Source: Candidatus Zixiibacteriota bacterium (GTDB lineage: Bacteria; Zixibacteria; MSB-5A5; GN15; FEB-12). From it: a DNA stretch of 64,000 nt. Shown here piece by piece: positions 2,102-23,232 of the stretch. The stretch lies in the NCBI GenBank assembly GCA_029860345.1, contig JAOUBJ010000008.1, positions 124,001-188,000 on the forward strand. The letters run 5' to 3'. Below the pieces are notes generated by a model, which made no database searches, had not been told where the DNA came from, and saw only the letters and a program-made list of their open reading frames with translations. Position numbers and translations under genes: made by a program. Position 1 is the first letter of the stretch. Each line of letters begins with the position of its first letter.

Positions 2102-2917
2102 TTACGTACCCTGGTTGTGCAAAAAAAATCGTCGATTCAATGGTGAGAGTTTTATGGCCGAAGCCAAGTCGTTTTGCTCGGTTAGTTCAGCATGACAGAA
2201 AGAGCCGGATCTGAATTCGACGTTTAGACTTCGAGCCAAAACCTTGGCCAACAAACGGCCCCCATGTAATCTGTGCTCATCGCTAATCGGCTGCGAATCA
2301 ACCGAGTAGGATGCAACCGGACCGCCCGGACGATACAAGGCCGGATGTGCAACCACTCCGTTCAGTTTGATCGCACCGTGTTGGAGAATGGTATCGCCAT
2401 ATTTACGAGCAGCCGACGCGACTATTTTTCTTCCATCGGCAACAACTTCATAGCGGGATCGCGAAGCAAAACAGGGAGCTCGATGAAAAAAATCCGGCCG
2501 GGAATCCAAAGCACCTGACCTGCGACAGTAATCTGCCGGTTTGCCCATAGTAGTAGCAAACTCAGTCAAAGCCTCGGCCACCACACGAAACAGGTGCGAA
2601 GGAGCCTCTGTCCAGGGTCGACCATCCCACTCGCCGAGATTAACCGCCAGGCAATAGGTCAACTCTGTTTGGTCGTGTAACAAGGCACGCCCACCGGTAA
2701 TACGCCTTATCACCGGAGTGTTCTCTAACTGCGAAAAATCCAGCGCCCGCTCCTTCGCCTGATTGACCCCGAAAGTGATAGTGGGCATCTCCCAGCCATA
2801 CAGCCGCAAATACAGCGTACCCGAACCACGACAAGCCTGCTGGAACATCCATTCATCGCAGGCCATATTGTAGTACGGATCGCACTCTGTCTGATTGTAG
2901 AAAACCGCACTGCTCAT
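2102..2917 (-). CDS. lipM: LipM-like octanoyltransferase / lipoate-protein ligase A family
   Basis: A 271-residue protein of the biotin/lipoate ligase (BPL/LplA/LipB) fold. Signature segments are RRITGGRALLHDQTELTYC (about 71-89), RAPCF with Cys149, and DGRKIVASAARKYGDTILQH (about 161-180) followed by GAIKLNG. A cysteine at about position 150 is the catalytic nucleophile of the LipM octanoyltransferases, so transfer of octanoyl from acyl carrier protein to lipoyl domains is more likely than ATP-dependent lipoate ligation. That is inference from one residue and the family pattern. It probably acts in the cytoplasm on 2-oxoacid dehydrogenase E2 or GcvH. It lies alone, with no lipA partner in view. 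The ribosome-binding site before the ATG is weak. Confidence 0.85.
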   Translation of the reverse strand: MSSAVFYNQTECDPYYNMACDEWMFQQACRGSGTLYLRLYGWEMPTITFGVNQAKERALDFSQLENTPVIRRITGGRALLHDQTELTYCLAVNLGEWDGRPWTEAPSHLFRVVAEALTEFATTMGKPADYCRRSGALDSRPDFFHRAPCFASRSRYEVVADGRKIVASAARKYGDTILQHGAIKLNGVVAHPALYRPGGPVASYSVDSQPISDEHRLHGGRLLAKVLARSLNVEFRSGSFCHAELTEQNDLASAIKLSPLNRRFFLHNQGT

Positions 2918-3797
2918 GGTGTCAAATTACGATCCAGGCTGGTGTGGCGCAAGCGGGATCGTCCGGTCGGCCGACCGGCGGGTAAACCTGGACAAGCGGT
3001 TGGCGGTGATAAATCACCGATAAATGGGTCTTGCGCTTCGCGGCCTTCTCATGTCATGCTGAGCGCAGTCGAAGCATGAGCCAAATCAACGTCATTCTGA
3101 GCGCACCCCCAATCTCACCCTGAGCACCCCAACCTGACCCTGAGCGGAGTCGACGCGTGCTCATTGTCGGGCGGCGCCCTCAAAGTTGCTTTGGGGGTGG
3201 TTATGTCACCGCCCCATACAAGGTTTGAGGCGGCCACCCGTGCAGGCTGGGTCGCAATGGCAAGTTTCTCCGGTTCCTGCGTTGGCCGAAGGCGAGCGTA
3301 TGTACCGGAGGCCTCAAAAGCTGCTTTTACACAACGCCTTAGTGAGATTCGAAGGGTAACGACCACGCCCAGGGCGTGGTCAGAACGCTGCTAAACCACA
3401 TTTTGATACAGCCTCATTGTTTGGGGCTAGCCCAGCCGCCCGGCCTGGCAACTCAAAATATGCAAAAAAAGCCGCCGGCCGCCGATTTTGCACTGACAGA
3501 CACTGGCAGTGGGCCCTTCTATATTTGTTCGTAGATTATGTTGCGCTCTGTGATCGATTTGGGCTAGGGAGAGGGGGCGAAAAGTTCGCGAAGGACCTTT
3601 TTGCCCTCTTTTTTTGTGTTTTTTGGATTGTAGGCGGAAGTTACATGCGTTTCTCTGGGTGGGGATTTGGTGATTCTCCTGTATTCCAAGTTGCACGGCA
3701 GGTATCAAAGTGGGTAGTTTTCTCAACTGTGCTCGGCGAGCCTCCGGCTGAATACCGGCTGGAGAGAGCTTCTGTCCTTATATTGGGGGAAAAATAC
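2918..3797. other. Gene-free region with dispersed repeats
   Basis: About 0.9 kb without a convincing gene. The first part holds degenerate copies of the dispersed element TGAGCGCAGTCGAAG (near 3058, 3100 and 3130) and a stretch rich in translated-looking but unsupported frames. From about 3417 the composition changes to long A and T runs, with a hairpin and T tract at 3570-3615. A frame at 3417-3818 is open but has no ribosome-binding site or recognisable protein, and was rejected. Confidence 0.5.
3570..3615 (+). terminator. Intrinsic-terminator-like hairpin with T7 tract
   Basis: AGAGGG..C.AAAAG pairs imperfectly with CCTTTTTGCCCTCT around a TTCGCGAAGG loop and is followed by seven T. No gene ends just upstream, so it may end an unannotated transcript from the plus strand. 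The tail GCCCTCTTTTTTTG closely matches, in opposite orientation, the tail of the candidate small RNA at 3798-3881. Confidence 0.45.
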
Positions 3798-3881
3798 AAA
3801 AAAAAAGAGGGCGGGTAGATCGATGGTAGAGGGGGCTAGGGAGCTACCAGTGGACGACCTACCCAGGTCCTCGTCTTAATT
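3798..3881 (-). ncRNA. Candidate small structured RNA
   Basis: A near-consensus promoter (3888-3915) points into about 84 bases with no good reading frame. The transcript would fold into a two-storey hairpin. The outer stem pairs 3855-3864 with 3813-3822 (10 pairs, one G-U), and the inner stem pairs 3844-3849 with 3824-3829 (6 pairs). It ends at a run of nine U (A9 on the plus strand, 3798-3806). Promoter, fold and U tract line up in the right order and at sensible distances. I do not recognise a known RNA family: there is no 6S, SRP, tmRNA or RNase P signature. Function is unknown. Confidence 0.45.
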
Positions 3882-3887
3882 GATCTC

Positions 3888-3929
3888 AGTATAGTAGAAT
3901 CAGACTGGTTGTCAACCCTTAGTTGACAA
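3888..3929 (-). promoter_or_regulatory. Strong sigma-70 promoter with inverted repeat over the -35
   Basis: On the minus strand TTGACA (3910-3915) and TATACT (3888-3893) are 16 bases apart, the best promoter match in the window. An 8-base inverted repeat, TTGTCAAC-N5-GTTGACAA (3909-3916 and 3922-3929), covers and extends upstream of the -35, as a repressor operator would. It drives the candidate small RNA and no protein gene. Confidence 0.6.
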
Positions 3930-4131
3930 AAAAATATCGGGGCACCGGCAGCGCGTTCCTGGTCGTTCGGCCATGGCCGTCCTGCTCTTCCACGGGGAGT
4001 GCTGGGCGACCGGCTGTCTGAGACTCACTGTCACTCTCAGAAAATGACGAAGGCCGTCGATTACCGTCGACCGTGTGCTTCGTGGGCGGCAGACCTCCCG
4101 GTTTGCCCCGCAATCAATCGATCAAAAAACC

Positions 4132-4226: not shown

Positions 4227-6815
4227 ATGAAACGCATCATGAGATCGTGTGTACTCGCTGCATCGTGTCTGGTTGTCGCCGGTGTGCTAGCTACCGGCCT
4301 CACGTCGGTGAATGCGAACGAGGTGAAGACAAACGGGCGAAGTATCGAGGAATTCGTAAACCCGGACGGTAGTTTCGATCTGGAGGATGCGCGACTTTCC
4401 GGCTTTGAAGGACCGCTGGACATGAAGGGGTTTGAATCGGCTATAGATTCGATCACCGGGCAACCGATGTTCAAGCCATCCGGAACCAGAGAAACCGACG
4501 ACCACCCGGAAGACATCTACTGGGACAACAGTATCTCACCGACCCTCGCCGGTGTAGATGACATCATCTATACGGCGACAGTCTACGATGGACGGCTTGT
4601 TGTCGCCGGTCGATTCTATCTGGCGGGCGACGTGATCTTGGATCACATAGCTGCGTGGGATGGCAGCAGTTGGTCTGACCTGGGAGCCCAGATGAATTCT
4701 CGGGTCGAGGCTTTGACCGTTTACGATGGGAAGCTGATTGCCGGAGGCTCTTTCACAAGAGCTGGCGGTGTCGAGGCAAGCTGCATAGCAGCCTGGGATG
4801 GGAGTACTTGGTCTTCCCTGGGTCAAGGATTAGGTGGTTGGGTCAGCGCTTTGACCGTGTACGACGGTGAATTGATAGCGGGAGGATGGTTCATTTCGGC
4901 TGGAGGCTCACCAGTAAACAGGATAGCTGCCTGGGATGGGAGTAGTTGGTCACCACTGGGATCGGGTTTGGAGGGCGATGGAATCGCATACGGGTTTTCT
5001 CTGACCGTCTTCGACGGAAATCTGATTGCGGGTGGGGGCTTCACTACGGCAGGAGGAGTGGCGGCAAACAACATAGCCTCCTGGGATGGCGCCAATTGGT
5101 CGCCACTGGGATCAGGGACGGATCATCTTGTTTACTCGCTGGGTTCTTACGATGGAAAACTGATAGCTGGAGGCAAATTCCTAACGGCAGGCGGCGTGGA
5201 GGCGACATTCATTGCCTCTTGGGACAGTACCGAGTGGTCACCACTTGGATCCGGGATGAACAAGAGTTCCGTTTTTTCTCTATTTGAGTACAATGGGAAG
5301 TTAGTAGCAGCAGGGAATTTCACTACAGCCGGTGGAGTGGAAGCGAGCAAGATAGCCTCCTGGGATGGGATCAATTGGACACCCTTTTCTTCGGGGATGA
5401 ACCACATTGTCTATGCCCTTACCCAGTACGAGGGAAATCTGATAGCCGTGGGTGAGTTCACATCGGCCGGAGGAGCCGGGGCATCCAGGGTGGCCTCCTG
5501 GAATGGAAACAGTTGGTCGGCGCTGGGGTCGGGAATAAGTGGTGCGATAAATGCCCTGGCTGTATACGATGGCAAAGTTATTGCGGGGGGCGAGTTCCGG
5601 GCGGCCTTCGGTGTACCGATGAACTTTCTCGCAGCCTGGGATGGAACCAGTTGGGCCTCACTCGGATCGGGAATGGACGGGACTGTCTTTGCCGTGACCT
5701 TGTACGCCGGGAAATTGATAGCCGGGGGTTCATTCACAACGGCCGGAGGTGTGACAGCAAACTCTATTGCCTCCTGGGATGGCAGCAGTTGGTCGCCCCT
5801 GGGATCGGGGATGGCGGGAGAGTACCCCGATGCCCGTGCCCTGGCTGTCTACGACGGGAAACTGATAGCAGGAGGTCGGTTCGACACAGCCGGCGGCGTG
5901 GAAGTGAACCATATAGCCTCTTGGGATGGGATCTCTTGGTTGCCGTTGGATTCGGGGATGAATGGTTCTGTCCGTTCGCTGGCCGCTTACGACGGGGAGC
6001 TGATAGCTGGAGGGTTTTTCGACACGGCAGGAGGAGTGGAAGCACAATACATTGCCTCATGGAATGGCAGCAACTGGTCGTCCGATCTGTCGCAGATGAA
6101 CGGATGGGTCTTTGCCCTAAACGTGTACGATGGGACACTGATTGCGGGCGGATCGTTCACGACGGCCGGAAGTGTGACAGGAACCAGTTTGGCCGCCTGG
6201 GACGGAAGCGGTTGGTCTTCTCTTGGGTTGGGGGTCTCAGGAAGAGTCCTCTCTCTGACAATACATGAAGGGAACCTGATATCGGGAGGACGACACACGC
6301 ACGCCGACGGCGCTGAGGTGAGCAAGATAGCATCCTGGAATGGCCACAGTTGGTCACCACTGGCATCGGGAATGAACACTGAGGTTCGCGCCCTATCCAC
6401 ACATGACGGTAAACTGTTTGCAGGAGGTACATTCACGTTCGCGGGAAACAAGGTCTCGGCCTATATGGCGGAGTGGACCTCCCCCCCGGATGCTGACAAC
6501 GATGGCACATCCGACGGCAACGACAACTGTCCGACCGACTACAACCCCGGGCAGGAAGATGCCGATGCAGACGGCGTCGGCGACATATGCGAAGCGACCT
6601 GCTGCACGCTAAGAGGTGACATCAACCGCGACTTCGCAGGTCCCGACATATCGGACCTGGTGTATTTGGTAGACTTCATGTTTAACGGCGGACCGGAACC
6701 GCCCTGTGAGCAGGAGGCAAACATTGACGCCGGCGGCGGGATCGACATTTCCGATCTCGTTTACATAGTTGACTACATGTTCAATGGCGGACCGCTACCG
6801 CCGGCGTGTCCTTAG
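4227..6815 (+). CDS. Secreted 14-repeat beta-propeller-like protein with dockerin
   Basis: 862 residues, start fixed by AAGGAGGA before the ATG. A signal peptide (about 1-31, cut near VNANE) is followed by a linker and then 14 repeats of about 46 residues (about 112-755). Each repeat carries the pattern YDGKLIAGGSFTTAGG, then IASWDGSSWSPLGSGM, resembling Kelch/delta-60-type propeller blades. Fourteen blades would make two seven-bladed propellers. Next come one thrombospondin type 3-like calcium repeat (DADNDGTSDGNDNCP) and a C-terminal dockerin-like module with two [17 protein letters not shown] repeats bracketed by CC and a final C. Likely surface-exposed or bound through the dockerin. The ligand is unknown. 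Confidence 0.85.
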   Translation: MKRIMRSCVLAASCLVVAGVLATGLTSVNANEVKTNGRSIEEFVNPDGSFDLEDARLSGFEGPLDMKGFESAIDSITGQPMFKPSGTRETDDHPEDIYWDNSISPTLAGVDDIIYTATVYDGRLVVAGRFYLAGDVILDHIAAWDGSSWSDLGAQMNSRVEALTVYDGKLIAGGSFTRAGGVEASCIAAWDGSTWSSLGQGLGGWVSALTVYDGELIAGGWFISAGGSPVNRIAAWDGSSWSPLGSGLEGDGIAYGFSLTVFDGNLIAGGGFTTAGGVAANNIASWDGANWSPLGSGTDHLVYSLGSYDGKLIAGGKFLTAGGVEATFIASWDSTEWSPLGSGMNKSSVFSLFEYNGKLVAAGNFTTAGGVEASKIASWDGINWTPFSSGMNHIVYALTQYEGNLIAVGEFTSAGGAGASRVASWNGNSWSALGSGISGAINALAVYDGKVIAGGEFRAAFGVPMNFLAAWDGTSWASLGSGMDGTVFAVTLYAGKLIAGGSFTTAGGVTANSIASWDGSSWSPLGSGMAGEYPDARALAVYDGKLIAGGRFDTAGGVEVNHIASWDGISWLPLDSGMNGSVRSLAAYDGELIAGGFFDTAGGVEAQYIASWNGSNWSSDLSQMNGWVFALNVYDGTLIAGGSFTTAGSVTGTSLAAWDGSGWSSLGLGVSGRVLSLTIHEGNLISGGRHTHADGAEVSKIASWNGHSWSPLASGMNTEVRALSTHDGKLFAGGTFTFAGNKVSAYMAEWTSPPDADNDGTSDGNDNCPTDYNPGQEDADADGVGDICEATCCTLRGDINRDFAGPDISDLVYLVDFMFNGGPEPPCEQEANIDAGGGIDISDLVYIVDYMFNGGPLPPACP

Positions 6816-7052
6816 ACCTCAATAGGGAGTATTGAAAAGGTCCCGGTTGGCGTCATTGCGAGGACGCCGAAGGCGGACGCGGCAATCTCATGCCTCGACT
6901 CCGCTCGGCATGACACGTGTGCCGCGAACTAAGATTGCCGCCTTCGCGGGTGTGACATGTGTGACGCGGGCATGAAAACTGAACGCGTTTTATAGCCCTA
7001 AGTGCGCTGAGCGCAGTCCAGACTCGTGCTGCCAAAAGCAGCCAAAAACAGT
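6816..7052. repeat. Intergenic dispersed palindromes
   Basis: No gene seen. It contains degenerate copies of the CTCGACTCCGCTCGGCATGAC-type repeat (near 6894 and 7008) and GCCGCCTTCGCGGGTGTGAC-type hairpins (near 6930) that recur in other gaps. These are genome-scattered repeats, not coding DNA. Confidence 0.6.
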
Positions 7053-7113
7053 TTGGAACAAGGACACTCCAATCGTATATTATGGATGCGTCAAGCGACC
7101 CGTCCAGACGGGT
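7053..7113 (+). promoter_or_regulatory. Promoter and 5' UTR hairpin of the Asp-box gene
   Basis: TTGGAA (7053-7058) and TATATT (7076-7081) have a 17-base spacer. ACCCGTC-CA-GACGGGT (7098-7113) is a perfect 7-pair hairpin about 17 bases downstream. This is the same layout as upstream of the gene at 4227, so the two are probably co-regulated or share a leader function. Confidence 0.7.
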
Positions 7114-7148
7114 TCTATCAGCAACGAAGACTGACTTCCGGAGGAATT

Positions 7149-9392
7149 ATGAGACACATCAATGTGACATTGGACGTCCTCGGCGTTTCCAGAAGCGGCA
7201 AAGGCAGCATTGTGATGTGGGCAGTGGTACTGCTGGCATTATTCACTCTCACGGATCGAGCCGACGCCCGGGTCTGGGAACATACAAGCGGACCGCTGGG
7301 GGGGGGAGTCGATTTCCTTGCCAGCGACTCAAGCGGTTACATGTTTACCAGCGGCTATGTCGGCAAGTGCTTTCGTTCTGCCGACGATGGAGATAACTGG
7401 ACGCAGCTCAGCGTTGACTGGAATGCCGGTGTGAGTGCGTTCGCAGTCAACGCCACCGGTGACATTTTTGTTGGTACCGATGGTGACGGCATTTATCGCT
7501 CCACTGACAACGGCGACAACTGGACGCAGCTCAACCTTGGCATGACGGTTTTATCCGCAAAGGATTTGGCCATCAGCCCCACCGGTGACATTTTCGCCGG
7601 GATTTGGTATCACGGCATTTATCGATCGTCCGACAACGGCGACACCTGGACGCTGGTCAATGGTAGTGTGCCGGTTACTTCTGTCTATTCTCTCGCCGTC
7701 AACTCAAGCGGTGACATATTTGCCGGTACTCGTAATGACGGTGTTTATCGTTCTACCGACAATGGCGACAACTGGACACAGATCGTCACTGGTTTGTCGT
7801 CAGCCCTGAGAATCTACTCTCTCGCCGTAAACTCCGGCGATGCCATTTTTGCCGGAACTGCAACCTACGGTGTGTATCGTTCTACTGACAACGGCGATAA
7901 TTGGTCGCAGATCAACAGCGGCATGGGCAATGGTACGGTCTCTGAAATAGCCATTGGCTCCACCGACGACATGTTTATCACTAACTCATTTACGGGTGTT
8001 TATCGTTCGACTGATAATGGAGATACCTGGACACAGGTCAACAGTGGATTATCGACGACAGCTGTCCAGGCCCTGGCCTTCGGGTCCAGCGGTAACATAT
8101 TTGTAGGCACAAAGGGCAGTGGTGTTTTTCGGTCGGGTGACAGTGGTGCCAACTGGGTCGAGATCAACAATGGCCTGACAGCTACCAGACCCTCGGCCCT
8201 CGCATTTAACGCAGGCGGCGACATTTTTGCCGGTACAATCGGCGATTTCTTTCGTTCGACCGACAACGGTGACACCTGGACTCAGATCAGTTTAAGTACG
8301 GGCTATACTTCGGTCCAGGCAGCCGCCGTCAACTCCGGAGGTGACATATTTGCAGGCGTCAGTTCTGGTGGTGTCTATCGTTCCACAGACAACGGCGACA
8401 ACTGGGCACAGACAACCAATGGACTGGGGAGCCCCACGGTCGGTGCTTTCGCCATAAGCACAGGTGGTGAGGTTTTTGCCGGTACTTTAGGTTCAGGTGT
8501 CTTTCGTTCAAATGACAATGGCGACAACTGGATACCGATCAACGATGGGATGATCAACCTGTATGTCAACGCTCTGGCTATCAACTCAGGCGGTGACATC
8601 TTTGCCGGGACGCGGGCCGGCAGTGTTCACCGTTCTACCAACAATGGCGATAACTGGACGCAGATCGAGCTGAGTCCGACGGTTTTTAGTGTCAGATCAC
8701 TGGCCATCAACTCGGCCGGTGACATTTTTGCCGGCACTAGTGCAGACGGCCTTTATCGTTCTACTGACAACGGCGATACCTGGACACAAATCTACAATTA
8801 TGCAAGTCTACCTTCGATCCGGGCAATCGTAGTCAATACCAGCGATGATCTGTTTATCACGAATTCTTTTGACGGCGTTCTACGTTCTACGGACAATGGA
8901 GATACCTGGATGGCGCTCAATTATGGCCTTCCCGGTTTAGAACTCCATGCTCTCGCCATCAGTTTCACCGACGACATAGTTGCCGGTATCTGGGGTGAGG
9001 GCGTTTACCGCTTGACTGAGTGCCCGGACGTTGATGCCGACTGGGTCTGTGATGCCTTTGACAACTGCCTCAATACGGCCAACGGCCCGCAAACAGATAA
9101 TGACCAGGACGGCCTTGGGGATGCCTGCGAATGTTGCTGTTCTCTGCGCGGGGATGTGGATCAATCCGGCACCTTGCCTGCACCCGACATTGCTGATCTG
9201 ACCTTCCTGGTAGACTTCATGTTCGCGGGCGGGCTTGCTCCGTCTTGTATGGGCAACGCTGATGTCGATGGTGATGCCGAGTGCCAGCCTACGTGCGGCG
9301 ACAGTCCTGATATCAGTGACCTGGTGTATCTTGTGGACTACATGTTCCAGGGTGGTCCGGCACCATTAGTTTGTCCGAGCGGCTGCAAGTAA
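7149..9392 (+). CDS. Secreted Asp-box (BNR) propeller protein with dockerin
   Basis: 747 residues. The frame runs further upstream, but those codons overlap the promoter; the ATG at 7149 has GGAGGA at good spacing and begins a long signal peptide (cut near ADARVWE). Thirteen clear Asp-box motifs (YRSTDNGDNWTQ) plus one degenerate copy repeat every 42-44 residues, again 14 blades, as in sialidase or Vps10-type propellers. No catalytic sialidase residues were identified, so binding or structure is more likely than glycosidase activity. A TSP3-like stretch (DNDQDGLGDACE) follows. The dockerin-like C-terminus is richer in cysteines than the others and ends VCPSGCK. Confidence 0.85.
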   Translation: MRHINVTLDVLGVSRSGKGSIVMWAVVLLALFTLTDRADARVWEHTSGPLGGGVDFLASDSSGYMFTSGYVGKCFRSADDGDNWTQLSVDWNAGVSAFAVNATGDIFVGTDGDGIYRSTDNGDNWTQLNLGMTVLSAKDLAISPTGDIFAGIWYHGIYRSSDNGDTWTLVNGSVPVTSVYSLAVNSSGDIFAGTRNDGVYRSTDNGDNWTQIVTGLSSALRIYSLAVNSGDAIFAGTATYGVYRSTDNGDNWSQINSGMGNGTVSEIAIGSTDDMFITNSFTGVYRSTDNGDTWTQVNSGLSTTAVQALAFGSSGNIFVGTKGSGVFRSGDSGANWVEINNGLTATRPSALAFNAGGDIFAGTIGDFFRSTDNGDTWTQISLSTGYTSVQAAAVNSGGDIFAGVSSGGVYRSTDNGDNWAQTTNGLGSPTVGAFAISTGGEVFAGTLGSGVFRSNDNGDNWIPINDGMINLYVNALAINSGGDIFAGTRAGSVHRSTNNGDNWTQIELSPTVFSVRSLAINSAGDIFAGTSADGLYRSTDNGDTWTQIYNYASLPSIRAIVVNTSDDLFITNSFDGVLRSTDNGDTWMALNYGLPGLELHALAISFTDDIVAGIWGEGVYRLTECPDVDADWVCDAFDNCLNTANGPQTDNDQDGLGDACECCCSLRGDVDQSGTLPAPDIADLTFLVDFMFAGGLAPSCMGNADVDGDAECQPTCGDSPDISDLVYLVDYMFQGGPAPLVCPSGCK

Positions 9393-22240: not shown

Positions 22241-23232
22241 GAGAACATCTCCCCCTGACCATCTTTACTTTCACTCTTCTTAGATCGATCAGAAAGCGAG
22301 TTCCTCTCCCAGAAGACTCCATCTGAATAACCCTGTATCGACTGGTTTGCTTCGGCCGCATTCAGGCGCTTGACAGCCCAACAGCAGTATTCCTGGTTTA
22401 ACTCTATGCCTACAAACCGTCGTCTGAGTTTCTTCGACACAACAGCCGTAGTTCCACTCCCGAGGAATGGGTCCAGGACTAGGTCATCCGGATTCGAGCT
22501 TGCGAGGATCAGTTTAGCAATCAACTTCTCCGGCTTCTGAGTTGGGTGATCAGTATTCTCTGTCATCGACCAAAAGGGTACTGTTATATCAGTCCAGACA
22601 TTGGACGGGTACGTCAGCCTGAAGTTTCCATTAGCTTCTTCTGTCCAGTCCTTGGGCTTCCCGTCCTGATTGCGGTAGGGGGCAATTACTCTTCTCTTGA
22701 GTTTGACATTATCCACGTTGAATGTATACTCTTCGGAGTTAGTGCAATGCCAAATGTCCTCAGTGTTATTCTTCCAATTGTGCACCGCTCCCCTTCCTTT
22801 CTCTCTCTCCCAGGTGATTCGATTTCGAATGACCATGTGCTCCTCAAGGACCGGGGCAACAAGCAGTGATGTGCTCCAATCAGCACAGACGTAGATAGTT
22901 GCTGTTCGCCTCAAAGTTGGTTTGATTAACTCGATTACCGAAGCAAACCACTTCTGATAATCCCCACTTTCCCTTCGTCGGAATAAGTGTCCGTTGTAGT
23001 TCTTCGACAGATTATAGGGTGGATCTAACACCAACAAATCAACGCTCTCATGGGGTAAGAACGGCATGGCTGCGACCATATCCTGATTAATAACGGTGTC
23101 TGCAACGTCTTCGACACAAACATCGTCTGCTACCTTGATTAGTGATTTGCTTAACTCCCGGAGTTCTTCATCTGTGCAGTAGAGTGTCCGGTTTCTCGGT
23201 GCCCGCTGATTCACGTTTAGTCTCTCTTCCAT
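22237..23232 (-). CDS. Adenine-specific DNA methyltransferase, beta class
   Basis: 331 residues. The catalytic motif IV DPPYNLSKNYNG (about 71-82) comes before the SAM-binding motif DPFLGSGTTAVVSKKLRRRF (about 255-274), the order of beta-class N6-adenine methyltransferases. Between them lies the target-recognition region. HPTQKPEKLI is the usual family helix. It protects the host from the adjoining endonuclease. The recognition sequence cannot be read from the protein. It is transcribed first, as is common when protection must precede cutting. Confidence 0.92.
   Translation of the reverse strand: MEERLNVNQRAPRNRTLYCTDEELRELSKSLIKVADDVCVEDVADTVINQDMVAAMPFLPHESVDLLVLDPPYNLSKNYNGHLFRRRESGDYQKWFASVIELIKPTLRRTATIYVCADWSTSLLVAPVLEEHMVIRNRITWEREKGRGAVHNWKNNTEDIWHCTNSEEYTFNVDNVKLKRRVIAPYRNQDGKPKDWTEEANGNFRLTYPSNVWTDITVPFWSMTENTDHPTQKPEKLIAKLILASSNPDDLVLDPFLGSGTTAVVSKKLRRRFVGIELNQEYCCWAVKRLNAAEANQSIQGYSDGVFWERNSLSDRSKKSESKDGQGEMFS

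Follow-up and report, generated by a model that had tools for sequence, protein, structure and literature searches.

In mycobacteria, the C-rich loops of 6C/B11 bind G-tracts in 5' UTRs, according to PMC10470900, which cites Mai et al. 2019, and in Rhizobiales the SmelA075 and SmelA099 families present constant anti-Shine-Dalgarno CCUCCUCCC loops on freely varying stems (PMC3927594). The high-affinity site of CsrA/RsmE-type proteins is a CANGGANG hexaloop (PMC4894983). In the present study we describe an RNA family which is apparently specific to Ca. Zixiibacteriota and previously undescribed; a search of the literature on small or noncoding RNA in Zixibacteria returned nothing relevant.

The window analysed here is a stretch of 64,000 nucleotides from a Candidatus Zixiibacteriota genome (contig JAOUBJ010000008.1). 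The sequence-only reading of this DNA had proposed a new small RNA of 84 nt, preceded by TTGACA-16-TATACT as the best promoter in the window. This promoter is present as claimed and lies on the minus strand, which had been left unstated, with the transcription start expected at about 3881. Its score of 11/12 is the highest in the window, but four sites tie at that value and it is not the sole best one; at one other site (22703-22730, plus strand) both hexamers are identical to those of the small RNA promoter. The features of the locus are the following.

3910-3915, minus strand: -35 hexamer TTGACA, seen in the sequence and recurring upstream of family members
3888-3893, minus strand: -10 hexamer TATACT, with a 16-nt spacer from the -35 hexamer, kept in sister genomes
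3909-3929, minus strand: inverted repeat TTGTCAAC-TAAGG-GTTGACAA, perfect over 8 bp with a 5-nt gap, overlapping the -35 box
3798-3881, minus strand: predicted small RNA, whole transcript, ends inferred; fold z -3.6 and family conservation
3869-3872, minus strand: stem P1, 5' arm GAGG, pairing with 3807-3810
3855-3865, minus strand: stem P2, 5' arm UGGGUAGGUCG, pairing with 3812-3822
3844-3849, minus strand: stem P3, 5' arm UGGUAG, pairing with 3824-3829
3830-3843, minus strand: apical loop CUCCCUAGCCCCCU, C-rich and near-invariant in the family (consensus UUUCCUAGCCCCCU)
3824-3829, minus strand: stem P3, 3' arm CUACCA, from the fold and covariation
3812-3822, minus strand: stem P2, 3' arm, from the fold
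3807-3810, minus strand: stem P1, 3' arm CCUC, terminator stem, from the fold and covariation
3798-3806, minus strand: U9 tail, intrinsic terminator, seen in the sequence and U-rich in most family members
3553-3623, plus strand: hairpin-terminator in convergent orientation, containing GGGCUAGGGAG and AGAGGGGGC, which complement the small RNA loop; in the source genome only
2102-2917, minus strand: gene for lipoate-protein ligase (LplA), lying downstream of the small RNA, the conserved neighbour in sisters

The 84-nt RNA from 3881 to 3798 folds with an energy of -27.2 kcal/mol (z -3.6), and none of 200 shuffles folded equally well. The structure runs from four basal pairs GAGG/CCUC through an 11-pair stem, a 5-nt bulge on the 5' side and a 6-pair stem to a 14-nt loop, and ends in U9. 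The hairpin of 10 plus 6 pairs proposed earlier was found, the longer stem counting 11 pairs with the terminal U-G and 10 without it; the U9 end is located at 3806-3798, and the stretch is non-coding as had been said, with no coding frame and a conserved secondary structure. Both the promoter of its own and the intrinsic terminator looked for in the general kind of trans-acting bacterial sRNA are present. The inverted repeat over the -35 box, a possible operator, is imperfect and only partly retained in sister genomes. A switch between the loop and P1, in which GAGGG would pair with the loop CCCUC, was ruled out, as the P1 variants AAGGG and GGGAG change in step with their 3' arm, independently of the loop.

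When 61 relatives were searched at the DNA level, four genomes from within the genus proved to carry the promoter-RNA-terminator unit at 85-86% identity; the similarity there is confined to the promoter and the RNA, and conservation is far above chance. The core GGTAG-loop-CTACC was recovered from many genomes in the family and the order. Covariance models extended this distribution to most of the phylum: the first one, built on 13 sequences, matched 101 of 132 Ca. Zixiibacteriota genomes and the second, built on 53 sequences, 108 of 132, with a single weak match (25 bits) among about 254 genomes outside the phylum. A laxer rerun on the match-less genomes left all seven of family f19 without the RNA. 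In a scan of 84,980 species genomes, the core pattern was present on 62 contigs, almost all of which are labelled Zixiibacteriota, and the phage and plasmid collections searched contained no match. Neither the RNA (at gathering or E up to 10) nor five relatives (at gathering) matched Rfam. A perfect TTGACA is found within 70 nt upstream in 68/95 family copies (about 1.9 expected), most members end in a U-rich 3' run, and the promoter and intrinsic terminator are conserved phylum-wide.

The covariation test was carried out on 53 distinct sequences and 21 pairs. The cells are paired in 89.9% of cases, and 13 of the 21 pairs have changed on both sides. Double-change cells number 60; shuffles give 18.7 +/- 3.9, with 0 of 500 reaching 60, and slid-partner controls at most 21. 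RNAalifold independently recovers the outer and apical stems. The outer pair of P1 covaries between GC and AU across the family, and in every paralog P2 differs in sequence while its pairing persists. Conservation of the stems among relatives, the test on which the earlier proposal had been staked, is therefore borne out by these 60 double changes, and the small RNA reading gains support from the conserved stems, promoter and terminator, from which we infer that the gene is transcribed. On comparative grounds, we conclude that this is a genuine gene for a small RNA, and that it belongs as one copy to a phylum-wide family.

The loop UUUCCUAGCCCCCU(CU) is near-invariant throughout the phylum, including all paralogs, and takes the form UUCCAGCCCCCCU in distant families. 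Paralogs with unrelated lower stems (GGAUGAA/UUCAUCC, CGAUCGGG and GGGGUAGGUU) adopt the same shape and carry the same loop; the 14-nt loop and the asymmetric 5' bulge are constant and the stem sequences vary freely. Judged by this conservation, the functional element is the loop and not the stems, a point that had gone unnoticed in the sequence-only reading.

We consider it fairly probable that the RNA is an independently transcribed, Hfq-independent and trans-acting sRNA, the C-rich loop of which pairs with G-rich ribosome-binding sites. Its own sigma-70 promoter would give an RNA of about 75-85 nt forming a single long hairpin, whose base and U-run would double as the terminator and which would display a fixed 14-nt single-stranded loop. 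The C-run of the loop would pair with purine-rich G-runs in or beside ribosome-binding sites, thus blocking translation. The likeliest conserved target would be the mRNA of zf_Tbcl; its ribosome-binding site, AGAGGGGG(A), exactly complements CCCCCUCU of the loop. Since the last CU of CCCCCUCU lies inside the closing base pairs of P3, about six seed bases would be free initially. Hfq was found in 0/21 genomes searched, the controls being positive.

The zf_Tbcl gene emerged from an unbiased seed search in ten genomes for the loop-core complement AGAGGGGG at 2-12 nt before ATG. This search gave 84 places, in which zf_Tbcl, a small protein of 70 aa with a treble-clef domain (PF13451), was the sole recurring ortholog group (8/10 genomes). 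As a control of low power, another seed pattern was searched; of its approximately 190 matches 30 were sampled, and the 12 ORFs compared showed no recurrence. Matches to the seed in single genomes were observed at superoxide dismutase, sucD, nuoJ and ackA. The complement of 13 nt of the loop, sought in eight genomes, returned 12 self matches and 9 non-orthologous others, none of them conserved at any gene.

We examined 89 zf_Tbcl leaders. The ribosome-binding sites of Zixibacteria are ordinary AAGGAG/GGAGG; in families f1-f4 that of zf_Tbcl contains GAGGGG in 70/70 leaders (4/566 for other genes) and AGAGGGGG in 44/70 (2/566). The median energy of the duplex between the loop and these leaders is -17.85 kcal/mol, which 0.7% of other leaders reach, and a reversed-loop control on zf_Tbcl leaders scores fairly well, being equalled by 3.5% of the background. 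Runs of G5-G7 occur in f5, f9 and 2/3 of f10, while f11 and f18 have the RNA and a zf_Tbcl ribosome-binding site without a G-run. By complementarity alone, and with a correlation that is imperfect in f11, f18 and f19, zf_Tbcl mRNA can tentatively be taken as a target of the sRNA, at slightly under an even chance.

A serious contender, to which we also give somewhat less than an even chance, is that the G-rich site of zf_Tbcl serves CsrA only and that the sRNA has other targets. The CsrA gene is present in 18/18 genomes, and an ANGGAN hexaloop hairpin with at least 3 pairs is found upstream in 52/89 zf_Tbcl leaders, where about 2 are expected. This hairpin is conserved across the phylum, the sequence of its stem varies while the pairing stays, and its most frequent position is 26-29 nt upstream of the ribosome-binding-site GGA; examples are L309 (G000:C13:101473-101775), L298 and L304. 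Furthermore, a GGGGG run stands at the zf_Tbcl ribosome-binding site in 4/6 genomes of the RNA-less family f19, so that the G-run may serve something else, e.g. CsrA. However, CsrA binding requires GGA and not AGAGGGGG, and in f5, f9 and f10 the hairpin is absent from 11/12 leaders, although these families have G-runs and mostly the RNA. Because of the CsrA-type hexaloop hairpin and the presence of CsrA in 18/18 genomes, we regard the zf_Tbcl leader as a CsrA target and a candidate sRNA target, its regulation by CsrA being probable from established knowledge of the motif. That both act jointly in this Hfq-less bacterium, CsrA bridging the ANGGAN hairpin and the GGA while the sRNA loop competes or cooperates at the same G-run, is a rather doubtful extension.

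It is unlikely that the RNA works by sequestering a protein instead of by base pairing, its invariant loop being bound by e.g. a cold-shock-type or other C-rich-RNA binder. Such a function would fit the retention of the whole loop including UUUCCUAG, beyond the needs of a 6-8 nt seed, the constancy of the loop and bulge on changing stems and the absence of a long conserved mRNA complement; yet there is one loop per molecule whereas known protein-titrating RNAs carry many binding sites, the consensus has no GGA motifs for CsrA, and the seed complement recurs at the ribosome-binding site of one ortholog.

The ancestral copy, at G000:C27:18573-18652 in the source genome, follows cysteine-synthase-like (PALP) and DUF1573 genes, and the RNA is often located 50-250 nt past DUF1573 in the same orientation; in more distant families a NarL-type regulator is found at the ancestral locus. 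The copy in the window arose by duplication at the genus level and lies beside lplA. It is a lineage-specific paralog of the phylum-wide family, which the sequence-only reading had likewise missed; its lower stem has been rebuilt and its loop slightly altered to CUCCCUAGCCCCCU. Other lineages carry their own extra copies, some of them in tandem; pairs 200-300 nt apart were observed in distant families (G119:C119:5009/5216, G101:C60:5048/5330 and G102:C2:18786/19076). The genes that come after the RNA differ from copy to copy and are mostly oriented against it, and with no conserved downstream partner a cis leader is unlikely. That the hairpin serves chiefly to terminate transcription, or as the cis-acting leader of a neighbour, and is not a separate RNA, as its U-run end, its frequent place behind DUF1573 and the few paralogs preceding a same-strand gene might suggest, is very improbable, given the perfect -35 box just upstream in most copies, neighbours that change while the RNA persists, and a loop invariant across the phylum, which terminators are not known to keep.

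Local antisense partners were also sought, and only the plus-strand hairpin of the source genome and the tandem copy in G119 were found. The former (3553-3623, fold z -3.6) ends in a U-run, and its 5' arm GGGCUAGGGAGAGGGGGC can be aligned as a complement of the loop of the sRNA in two registers that overlap; it is a possible sponge RNA or relic. Elsewhere in the window, 4077-4109 is a copy of a dispersed GC-rich repeat of the GGCAGACC.CCCGGT.TGCCCCGC type, which occurs dozens of times in the genomes of Zixibacteria, and 4227-6815 and 7026-9392 (plus strand) encode two large secreted beta-propeller-like proteins whose C-terminal DISDLVYxVDYMFNGGP sequences are dockerin-like repeats.

The favoured reading of a trans-acting, Hfq-independent sRNA gives an entry point to post-transcriptional control in a phylum where such control has hardly been described, through a specific testable target and a link to CsrA in bacteria where Hfq was not found (21 genomes). 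The RNA is near-universal in this whole uncultured phylum, and its loop is conserved like a housekeeping RNA element. Hfq-dependent sRNAs need an Hfq in the genome, in contrast to the 0/21 found here. CsrB/RsmZ, which sequester CsrA, are likewise small RNAs in a CsrA-bearing genome, and the candidate target has a CsrA-type hairpin; they possess several GGA-loop hairpins, whereas the Zixibacteria consensus has none. SmelA075/SmelA099 share the constant C-rich loop with variable stems, but they have three or four hairpins with CCUCCUCCC loops, whereas the RNA described here has one hairpin with a UUUCCUAGCCCCCU loop and belongs to a different phylum. The actinobacterial 6C sRNA (Rfam RF01066; B11 in mycobacteria) is alike in its C-rich hairpin loop, in needing no Hfq and in pairing with G-tracts in 5' UTRs, a pairing which is proposed here. 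However, 6C has two C-rich loops, and the Zixibacteria RNA, from a different phylum, a longer mixed loop displayed on a terminator stem. Membership of 6C is excluded because the RF01066 model was unmatched (at gathering or E up to 10; five relatives at gathering) and a single hairpin with one loop replaces the two C-run stem-loops typical of 6C. Thus, the Zixibacteria RNA is not a 6C member but a new family, a single-loop form of the C-rich-loop anti-ribosome-binding-site RNAs.
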